Both the position numbers and the translations under genes were made by a program. Shown here one piece after another: positions 4,735-6,429 of a stretch of DNA of 13,216 bases. The first letter of the stretch is position 1; each line of letters starts with the position of its first letter. Source of the stretch: Nitrososphaerota archaeon. Lineage in GTDB: Archaea; Thermoproteota; Nitrososphaeria; Nitrososphaerales; Nitrosopumilaceae. The DNA lies in NCBI GenBank assembly GCA_002730325.1, contig PBZV01000032.1, positions 4,811 to 18,026 on the forward strand, read 5' to 3'. The notes below the pieces were generated by a model. It had not been told where the DNA came from and did no database searches. It saw only the letters and a program-made list of their open reading frames with translations.

Positions 4735-5400
4735 TTAATCTTCATTAAGTAATTTTTGAATCATTGAATCAATATGGTTTGATTGTCCAAATGACACATC
4801 TCTGAGAATTCCTTTTCTATCCACTAGAATCATTGATGGTGTTCCTTGTAAAGAAAATTTTTCAAAAGTTTCAGCAGAATATTCTTTTGAATTCATGTAG
4901 CTTTTCACTCTTTGAATAATCTGATTTCTATAATCTTCTGGTTGTGAATCAAATTCTGGAATCTGTGGATAGATAAATTGCATGATCTTATCTTGACTTA
5001 TCTCTCCTGAGTTTTTTGTTATGTTGTCCATTCCTAAAGGAAACGGAATCTTGTATGGTAACTTGTTTCCTTCTTGTAATTGTCCATTCATTGAAAATGC
5101 CCCTCTGGTTTCACCAATCACTTCTCCTGTTTCTGCAAGCATTTTCAAATTATCTAATGTATTTTTATCAAAATCTTCAAAAGCTGTTGCAAGTCCCATT
5201 ACTCTTACCCCCTCATCTTTGTATTTGTTGTAAATGTTAATTGCTTCAGGAATTGCATGCATAAAACAACCTGGACAATTAACTTGGAATACTTCAAGTA
5301 AAACGATGTGATCTTTTTCTTGGTCAAAATTGGTAGGAGCCCCTTGAACCCACTCTGATACTCCAAAATTTGGTACTTTCTCACCAATTACTGCACTCAT
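4735..5400 (-). CDS. Thioredoxin-fold (TlpA/AhpC-like) redoxin with CPGC motif
   Basis: A 221-residue protein without a signal peptide, so probably cytoplasmic. The N-terminus (GEKVPNFG, residues 6-13) is typical of peroxiredoxin/TlpA-like proteins. The redox motif is NCPGC with Cys42 and Cys45 following a hydrophobic strand (IVLLEVFQV). The cis-proline loop is GTPSMILVDRKG, with Pro188, followed by the last strand and helix. The gap from Cys45 to Pro188 is about 143 residues, roughly twice that of plain thioredoxin, so there is an insert at about 95-175. A role as thiol-disulphide oxidoreductase or thiol peroxidase is inferred. CPGC has the two Cys of a disulphide reductase rather than the single peroxidatic Cys of Prx. 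The gene is transcribed alone from its own TATA box. Confidence 0.75.
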   Translation of the reverse strand: MSAVIGEKVPNFGVSEWVQGAPTNFDQEKDHIVLLEVFQVNCPGCFMHAIPEAINIYNKYKDEGVRVMGLATAFEDFDKNTLDNLKMLAETGEVIGETRGAFSMNGQLQEGNKLPYKIPFPLGMDNITKNSGEISQDKIMQFIYPQIPEFDSQPEDYRNQIIQRVKSYMNSKEYSAETFEKFSLQGTPSMILVDRKGILRDVSFGQSNHIDSMIQKLLNED

Positions 5401-5497: not shown

Positions 5498-5986
5498 TTG
5501 CAGGCTGTAACTGAAGAAAGATTGGCACTATTTGCTGAAATGGAATTAAAATATGAACAAAAGGACACTGATTATTTTGTATCTCTTTTAGAACATCCTG
5601 ATTATGTTGTAAGAACAAGAGTTGCTTGTATTTTGGTAGATTTTGGTGGTGAAGATAAAGTACAGTATATTGCTAAAGTTTTAAAAAATGATGAAAATGA
5701 ACTAGTTCGACATGAAGCAGCTTTTGCGTTAGGTCAGATGAATTATTCTAGTGCAATTCCACCTCTAAATGATGCAACTCTTCATGATCCAAGTATGTTT
5801 GTAAGACATGAAGCTGCAATTGCTTTGGGTGTAGTTGGTAGTAAAGAGGCAAAAGATACTCTAGAAAGTGCATTAAATGATCCTGATAAGCCTGTTGTGG
5901 AATCTGCAATTGTTGCATTATCTAATATTGAGTTTATGGAAAAGTTAAGTAAGAACAAACAATTTGCAAAATTAACAGGTGGATGA
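5498..5986 (+). CDS. HEAT-repeat protein resembling one half of deoxyhypusine hydroxylase (DOHH)
   Basis: A 162-residue, all-helical HEAT/PBS-lyase-like repeat protein. The first copies lie at about 26-60; two carry His-Glu pairs: LVRHEAAFALGQM (His72-Glu73) and FVRHEAAIALGVVG (His104-Glu105), 32 residues apart. From memory, each lobe of eukaryotic DOHH has the same order: RFRALFTLR repeat, HE-x2-Y-x-LGQM, VRHEA-x2-ALGAIG, then a repeat with DP...VVxES/VAET. There the HE pairs from two lobes bind the diiron centre that hydroxylates deoxyhypusine on eIF5A. This protein matches a single lobe (human DOHH has two, about 300 residues), so activity would need a dimer. HE-bearing HEAT repeats also occur in unrelated scaffold proteins, so this is a hypothesis. 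TTG is the only plausible long start. The stop overlaps the cupredoxin start (ATGA). Confidence 0.7.
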   Translation: MQAVTEERLALFAEMELKYEQKDTDYFVSLLEHPDYVVRTRVACILVDFGGEDKVQYIAKVLKNDENELVRHEAAFALGQMNYSSAIPPLNDATLHDPSMFVRHEAAIALGVVGSKEAKDTLESALNDPDKPVVESAIVALSNIEFMEKLSKNKQFAKLTGG

Positions 5987-6429
5987 GTTTGAATTTTTCA
6001 TATGGAATTATAGCAATTGTTGGTGTTTTAGTTGCAATATCTATTGGATTTATTGCAGTTTCTCCTGATTATGTTCCAGAACCTCGAGTAGTTGGAGAAT
6101 CTGTAAAATCAACTGCTCCTGTATTGCCTATGTCTCTAATCGTTTCACTCCCAACAGGTTCTGGGGTTCCTGGATGTGATGAAACAAACGAATGTTTCTT
6201 GCCTTATGATGGTGCTGTAGCAAAAGGTGCGACTGTTACTTGGAACAATGATGATTCTGCAGCTCATACTGTAACTAGTGGAACTCCTTCAGATGGTCAT
6301 GATGGACTATTTGATTCTGGACTTTTTATGTCAGGTTCTGACTATGAATTTACTTTTGAGGATGCAGGAACTTATGATTATTTCTGTATGGTTCATCCTT
6401 GGATGGTTGGAATCATCGATGTTAACTAA
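5983..6429 (+). CDS. Membrane-anchored plastocyanin-like blue copper protein
   Basis: A 148-residue protein with an N-terminal membrane segment (about 7-26), a Pro/Ser linker (27-60), and a cupredoxin domain (about 70-148). All four type 1 copper ligands are visible: His95 in DSAAHTVTSG, then Cys135, His138 and Met141 in YFCMVHPWMVG. A Cys65/Cys71 pair (GCDETNEC) before the domain probably forms a disulphide. The uncleaved-looking anchor would tether it to the outer face of the cytoplasmic membrane. Thaumarchaeal ammonia oxidisers have many such proteins, thought to carry electrons between ammonia oxidation, NirK and the respiratory chain. Its individual partner cannot be told from sequence. 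It is translationally coupled to the HEAT-repeat gene, and its stop overlaps that of the opposing rad50 by 3-4 bases. Confidence 0.88.
   Translation: MSLNFSYGIIAIVGVLVAISIGFIAVSPDYVPEPRVVGESVKSTAPVLPMSLIVSLPTGSGVPGCDETNECFLPYDGAVAKGATVTWNNDDSAAHTVTSGTPSDGHDGLFDSGLFMSGSDYEFTFEDAGTYDYFCMVHPWMVGIIDVN

Follow-up and report, generated by a model that had tools for sequence, protein, structure and literature searches.

Deoxyhypusine hydroxylase (DOHH) completes a modification, both rare and vital, of a factor in protein synthesis. The eukaryotic enzyme (EC 1.14.99.29; human PDB 4d4z; yeast Lia1) consists of two lobes of four HEAT repeats and carries four His-Glu pairs per chain. Passages of five papers published from 2012 to 2021 (PMC3306375, PMC5178350, PMC6105217, PMC7773846, PMC8153317) state that no archaeal DOHH is known and that several archaea carry hypusine despite having no known DOHH homolog; an earlier note on the DNA studied here had likewise stated that archaea were long considered to lack this enzyme. 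In addition, part of a paper from 2022 regards DOHH as an oxidase descended from a non-enzyme HEAT module (PMC9040561). Here, we analyzed a stretch of 13,216 nucleotides (hereafter the window, meaning this whole stretch) from contig PBZV01000032.1 of a Nitrososphaerota archaeon (assembly GCA_002730325.1) whose closest named relatives are Nitrosopumilus. An open reading frame (ORF) of the window encodes a 162-residue HEAT-repeat protein that the earlier note had put forward as a half-size candidate archaeal DOHH. Judged from its sequence, this protein represents a single DOHH-like lobe and is, in the strict sense, not a DOHH: the strict definition calls for eight HEAT repeats arranged as two four-repeat lobes and for four active-site His-Glu pairs per chain, and we found one lobe and two pairs.

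Local alignment of the window protein to human DOHH gave a score of 153 with the N lobe (39/108 identical residues, 36%) and of 130 with the C lobe (37/106, 35%). Since shuffled N-lobe controls (n = 200) had a mean score of 27.7 +/- 4.5 and a maximum of 43, this likeness exceeds chance. Repeat 1 (RTRxxxILxxxGGE), repeat 2 (RHEAAFALGQM), repeat 3 (RHEAAIALGVVG) and repeat 4 follow one another in the alignment as they do in the human lobe, which bears out the repeat order read from the sequence in the earlier note. His72-Glu73 lies within VRHEAAFALGQM and His104-Glu105 within VRHEAAIALGVVG. Besides the order of the four repeats, the window protein shares with eukaryotic DOHH the LGQ motif, equivalents of Glu57 and Gly63, and a His-Glu pair in each of repeats 2 and 3 (spaced by 32 residues in the window protein and by 33 in DOHH). 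Furthermore, human DOHH was the best natural (non-designed) match in a PDB sequence search (E 1.2e-24), and a fold search with the AF2 monomer model, which has a HEAT fold, matched 4d4z with a TMq of 0.75. A joint lobe profile was built from N and C lobes, 30 of each, drawn from 110 DOHH sequences; the named ones among those used for profiles and trees are all from vertebrates, others having no name. It gave 50.8-79.9 bits to the archaeal orthologs (n = 124), 26.6-43.9 bits to a second His-Glu HEAT family described below, 23.7 bits to a partial ortholog and at most 26.5 bits to other archaeal HEAT proteins. This profile comparison, which the earlier note had suggested as a check, places the orthologs nearer to DOHH lobes and other HEAT proteins farther away. 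The window protein retained 52.8 of its 68.5 profile bits after masking of the His-Glu pairs, a masking that covered both pairs only if A, C or V followed HE, some rows having lost one pair.

Conservation was examined on 240 listed archaeal proteins (154-222 residues, the candidates being restricted by length) pooled with 166 ORFs from the loci scoring above 180 bits. This gave 364 distinct strings, among which some genes probably entered twice with differing N termini. They were selected on overall profile score and not on the His-Glu pairs. All 364 carry both pairs at exactly 32-residue spacing together with LGQ; the full second motif is present in 362. Clustering of the cores at 70% identity gives 10 groups, whose representatives are down to 35% identical. 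Positions conserved in at least 99% of the strings include R71, H72, E73, L78, G79, Q80, D97, V102, R103, H104, E105, G111 and G114. The iron-ligand positions His56, His89 and Glu90 of DOHH (roles according to parts of PMC9117371 and PMC3306375) align with His72, His104 and Glu105, and the substrate-binding positions Glu57/Glu208 and Gly63/Gly214 with Glu73 and Gly79; all are invariant in the 364 strings. In the section of PMC9117371 on human residue roles, His56 is an iron ligand and Glu57 binds the substrate; the glycine is printed there as G65, which we took as G63 since the human sequence has Gly at 63 and Met at 65. Unlike DOHH, the archaeal family has a conserved N-terminal helical segment and conserved tails, the last three residues being TGG in 259, PRP in 82 and PHP in 17 of the 364 strings. 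C termini rarely fall into so few types, which hints at a functional tail. Another difference concerns human Met86, opposite which 358 of the 364 strings have Phe or Ile. We take this methionine to be important in eIF5A binding. One genome (G046) has only the 3' half of an ortholog, which keeps the second His-Glu pair; its first half was not found within the 6 kb locus.

To what extent other archaeal HEAT proteins carry such pairs was examined in 35 genomes without a full ortholog, searched with HEAT_2. Sixteen matched; their 30 loci encode 18 non-redundant proteins. Among 38 repeat motifs of this background, one has HE and belongs to the partial ortholog (L195, genome G046); the rest have none (0/37). 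Two HE spaced by 31-34 residues were found in 0/19 other archaeal HEAT proteins (after addition of L047, L171 and L002 and merging of overlaps), a small and narrow background in which many are long proteins with HExxH, M1-aminopeptidase-like by eye. In the genome of the window, only two HEAT_2 proteins were found; the window protein alone has paired HE, and the second one, encoded in L002, carries HE once, close to its C terminus.

Nitrosopumilaceae also harbor a second family of single-lobe HEAT proteins in which both His-Glu pairs are present, 32 residues apart as in the window protein. It differs from the latter by its lower lobe-profile scores, by the lack of the LGQ motif in the four members examined (L172-L175) and by its position on a separate branch (100/99). 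Since this family carries both pairs too, His-Glu pairs alone do not specify DOHH. Its members are possibly another HEAT diiron enzyme. Outside Nitrosopumilaceae, the matches other than orthologs and short fragments were ORFs longer than this family, not each of them being inspected for His-Glu. No member of the second family turned up in the window's genome, and one other genome (G030) has two of its members plus an ortholog. A heterodimer with the second family was considered as a general mechanism and is disfavored: in the window's genome, 93% complete, only the two HEAT_2 proteins were found, the other being unpaired.

Trees were built from 25 orthologs, four proteins of the second family, seven DOHH proteins (both lobes) and 11 rows of other HEAT proteins; they are limited by long branches and by vertebrate-heavy DOHH sampling. 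All DOHH lobes fall into a single group (100/98), within which the N lobes (96/93) and the C lobes (96/95) separate. Orthologs and DOHH lobes stayed apart in two reruns (99/97 and 98/100), one without any other-HEAT rows and one without the second family and six other-HEAT rows. One ortholog (L165) is identical over the tree columns to a protein of archaeon HR01. The grouping of the DOHH lobes with each other, outside the archaeal family, fits an origin of the eukaryotic lobes by duplication of a single-lobe ancestor after the split from this family. The suggestion of the earlier note that a single-lobe protein would resemble the form that preceded gene duplication agrees with this topology.

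Distribution was sampled within the phylum. Matches of at least 100 bits were found in 43 of 61 genomes (the window's own and its relatives), i.e. 33/37 of the genus and 10/24 others of the order. Of 250 genomes drawn evenly from the phylum, 45 carry an ortholog of at least 190 bits, the next among the matches listed having at most 65.4 bits. The best 80 of 306 relatives in the named genome scan are titled Nitrosopumilus, Nitrosarchaeum, Nitrosotenuis, Thaumarchaeota and similar; among the matches listed, the closest named proteins of outlying orthologs are from Candidatus Caldarchaeum, Caldiarchaeum subterraneum and archaeon HR01. The family occurs in ammonia oxidizers, other Nitrososphaerota and Caldarchaeum-like archaea. 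No relatives were found in the phage records and viral contigs searched. As a proxy for aerobic life, we scored heme-copper oxidase by PF00115, in 39 of the 61 genomes and in the phylum draw. In the order outside the genus, orthologs were present in 10/17 oxidase-positive and 0/7 oxidase-negative genomes; in the genus, 13 of the 14 ortholog-bearing genomes given were oxidase-positive (exception G011). In the phylum draw, oxidase was found in 44 of the 45 ortholog-bearing genomes (exception G276) versus 51 of the 205 others. Counted by genus, orthologs occur in 15/43 oxidase-positive versus 0/68 oxidase-negative (Fisher 1.1e-7; 0.001 without the window's family), values that are descriptive, the rows not being phylogenetically independent.

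The genome also encodes aIF5A with the PGKHG-loop lysine and two genes of the deoxyhypusine synthase (DHS) family, one canonical-looking and one DHS-like. The former carries SKHH and TAQEF.GS.SGA, which we take to be the DHS catalytic pattern. About 3 kb separate the DHS-like gene from a gene of the agmatinase family. Agmatinase-family genes were found in 21/22 ortholog-bearing genomes, and PF01564 (spermidine synthase) in 10/22 of those searched, in several weakly and inside proteins of 550-600 aa. Given these two counts, an agmatine route to deoxyhypusine, such as part of PMC6105217 describes for Haloferax, is possible; it would still require a hydroxylase to yield hypusine.

The most likely reading, which we consider probable, is that of a homodimeric diiron hydroxylase of aIF5A belonging to the DOHH lineage. 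In the scheme that we infer, two chains would pair face to face like the two lobes of eukaryotic DOHH. In each chain, one iron of the diiron center would be held by His72, His104 and Glu105, with Glu73 and Gly79 binding the side chain of the substrate. Supplied with O2 and an electron donor, such a dimer would hydroxylate aIF5A at its deoxyhypusine side chain. Eukaryotic DOHH would derive from a lobe of this kind that was duplicated and fused. The fuller proposal, in which the homodimeric single-lobe enzyme makes true hypusine on aIF5A in ammonia-oxidizing and Caldarchaeum-like archaea and is the pre-duplication form of DOHH, is tentative, with a little less than an even chance of being right.

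Several observations weigh against hydroxylation of aIF5A by this protein. The second single-lobe family of the same archaea has both His-Glu pairs as well, which suggests that the scaffold diversified. No linkage of the HEAT gene to aIF5A or DHS was seen among 24 loci. No match to spermidine synthase (PF01564) or AdoMet decarboxylase (PF02675) was found in the window's genome. These three points, together with the presence of PF01564 in fewer than half of the ortholog-bearing genomes searched, would also suit a DOHH-lineage HEAT oxygenase with a diiron center that acts on another protein or on a small molecule. We nevertheless hold this rather unlikely: Glu73 and Gly79, opposite the substrate-binding residues of DOHH, are invariant, aIF5A and DHS are both encoded in the genome, and the agmatinase-family genes leave room for the agmatine route. 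The conserved C-terminal tail, resembling a binding motif, would in turn suit a metal-binding, non-catalytic HEAT protein, for instance a scaffold that binds aIF5A or DHS and whose pairs hold structural zinc or iron. However, every lobe-level ligand position of DOHH is kept while the cores drift to 35% identity, and the gene nearly always occurs alongside terminal-oxidase genes, making such a scaffold improbable.

Designed alphaRep HEAT proteins outrank DOHH in both the fold and the PDB sequence searches, which counts against the aIF5A hydroxylase too; an alignment-profile PDB search again put alphaReps and the designed 6veh ahead of DOHH, and fold searches do not tell DOHH from designed HEAT proteins. 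The PDB search results would suit a generic PBS-lyase-type HEAT scaffold with coincidental His-Glu pairs, as would the Pfam labels of HEAT type (plus Cnd1), the failure of any NCBIfam model to reach its cut-off with the window protein (NblB 42 bits versus 300) and the weakness of the branch (65/19) that parts most other HEAT proteins from the rest. PBS-lyase-type proteins (NblB, CpcE, YibA) and alphaRep designs do share the HEAT fold and the repeat consensus of the window protein, but the window protein stays far below the NCBIfam cut-offs. Moreover, a generic scaffold is defined by a consensus lacking fixed His-Glu pairs, and the ortholog family does not conform to it: both pairs are kept throughout the 364 strings and paired HE is absent from the 19 other HEAT proteins of the archaeal sample. 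Together with the gap in DOHH profile scores, these counts disfavor the generic scaffold and leave it very improbable. The kinship to DOHH claimed in the earlier note stands on alignment, profile and conservation. On these sequence comparisons, we regard kinship to a DOHH lobe, and not to a generic HEAT scaffold, as well supported.

The aIF5A hydroxylase also has to be set against distribution. An ortholog occurs without an oxidase match in G011 (96% complete) and G276 (81%), some oxidase-positive relatives lack the gene, and neighbors are poorly conserved across the 24 loci, being common mainly within the window's family. Pyrodictium and Thermoproteus are anaerobes. Hypusine is nevertheless listed for both in the relevant passage of PMC5178350, which gives small amounts for Thermoplasmales and halobacteria. 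According to part of PMC9599864, some anaerobic species halt at deoxyhypusine, and reports on archaeal hypusine thus conflict, since these two sources differ on it. Sulfolobus acidocaldarius, reported to be hypusinated, gave no HEAT_2 match, and the family cannot explain hypusine in Sulfolobus. Nonetheless, a conserved single-lobe relative of DOHH that carries the active-site residues of a lobe offers at least one archaeal branch a concrete hydroxylase candidate and is plausible as an intermediate stage in the origin of DOHH from a HEAT module (cf. the view taken in part of PMC9040561). If aIF5A is indeed its substrate, the eukaryotic hypusine pathway, O2 step included, would have an archaeal counterpart. 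The candidate role and the evolutionary intermediate can both be tested in cultured ammonia oxidizers.

Literature searches on DOHH and archaea gave no title describing an archaeal DOHH among those listed. No open-literature paper was found on DOHH with Thaumarchaeota or Asgard, or on hypusine with Nitrosopumilus; subscription papers and preprints were outside this scope, and an earlier description is possible. Protein searches covered the best 120 of 6705, 6446 and 2849 proteins. The label "deoxyhypusine monooxygenase" was given by JGI to 6 of the best 120 of 6705 and to 7 of the best 120 of 2849, and NCBI names for relatives among the matches listed are HEAT repeat or hypothetical protein.

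Table 1. Features of the window, and of other loci where a locus or contig precedes the coordinates.
Feature	Position	Strand	Evidence
Single-lobe DOHH-like HEAT-repeat protein, 162 aa	5498-5986	+	ORF; Pfam HEAT_2 89.4 bits; AF2 monomer pLDDT 93.7
His72-Glu73, equivalent to human H56-E57 / H207-E208	5711-5716	+	alignment; kept in 364/364 strings
LGQM motif, residues 78-81; Gly79 opposite human Gly63/Gly214	5729-5740	+	LGQ in 364/364 strings
His104-Glu105, equivalent to human H89-E90 / H240-E241 (iron ligands)	5807-5812	+	alignment; kept in 364/364 strings
TGG C-terminal tail, conserved	5975-5983	+	TGG as final three residues in 259/364 strings
Plastocyanin-like copper protein	5983-6429	+	PF00127 31 bits
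Redoxin-like protein, flanking the HEAT gene	4735-5400	-	
Second single-lobe His-Glu HEAT family, Nitrosopumilaceae	L172:586-1080; L173:546-1058; L174:789-1286; L175:682-1212	+; +; -; -	
Ortholog 3' half, genome G046	L046:3229-3513	-	
Two DHS-family genes (one canonical-looking, one DHS-like) and agmatinase-family gene, window's genome (G000)	C13:24610-25503, C30:1847-2695, C13:20793-21563		

The window lies on a contig (C32) of a 1.13 Mb assembly. The HEAT reading frame is open and begins with TTG, a start supported by the Met that stands at the aligned position in an ortholog (L007). Since the ATG of the copper-protein gene overlaps the stop of the HEAT gene by four bases, the two genes are possibly co-transcribed in this genome. 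A similar ORF follows the HEAT gene on its strand in 4 of the 24 compared loci (the window, L048, L049 and L050). The redoxin-like and plastocyanin-like flanking proteins are potential electron carriers, in an arrangement observed only within part of the window's own family. Other genes of the window encode ribosomal protein L15e, a phosphoglycerate-dehydrogenase-like protein and aspartate dehydrogenase, as well as Rad50-, HerA- and NurA-like proteins (scores under NCBIfam cut-offs). An Rfam scan of the window gave no match at gathering thresholds. Outside the window's family, a Rad50-like ORF was found 4 kb off in one locus (L037), and one small ORF is common to L036, L037, L038 and L178. In three loci of family f30, the neighbors encode molybdenum-hydroxylase subunits and Sua5.
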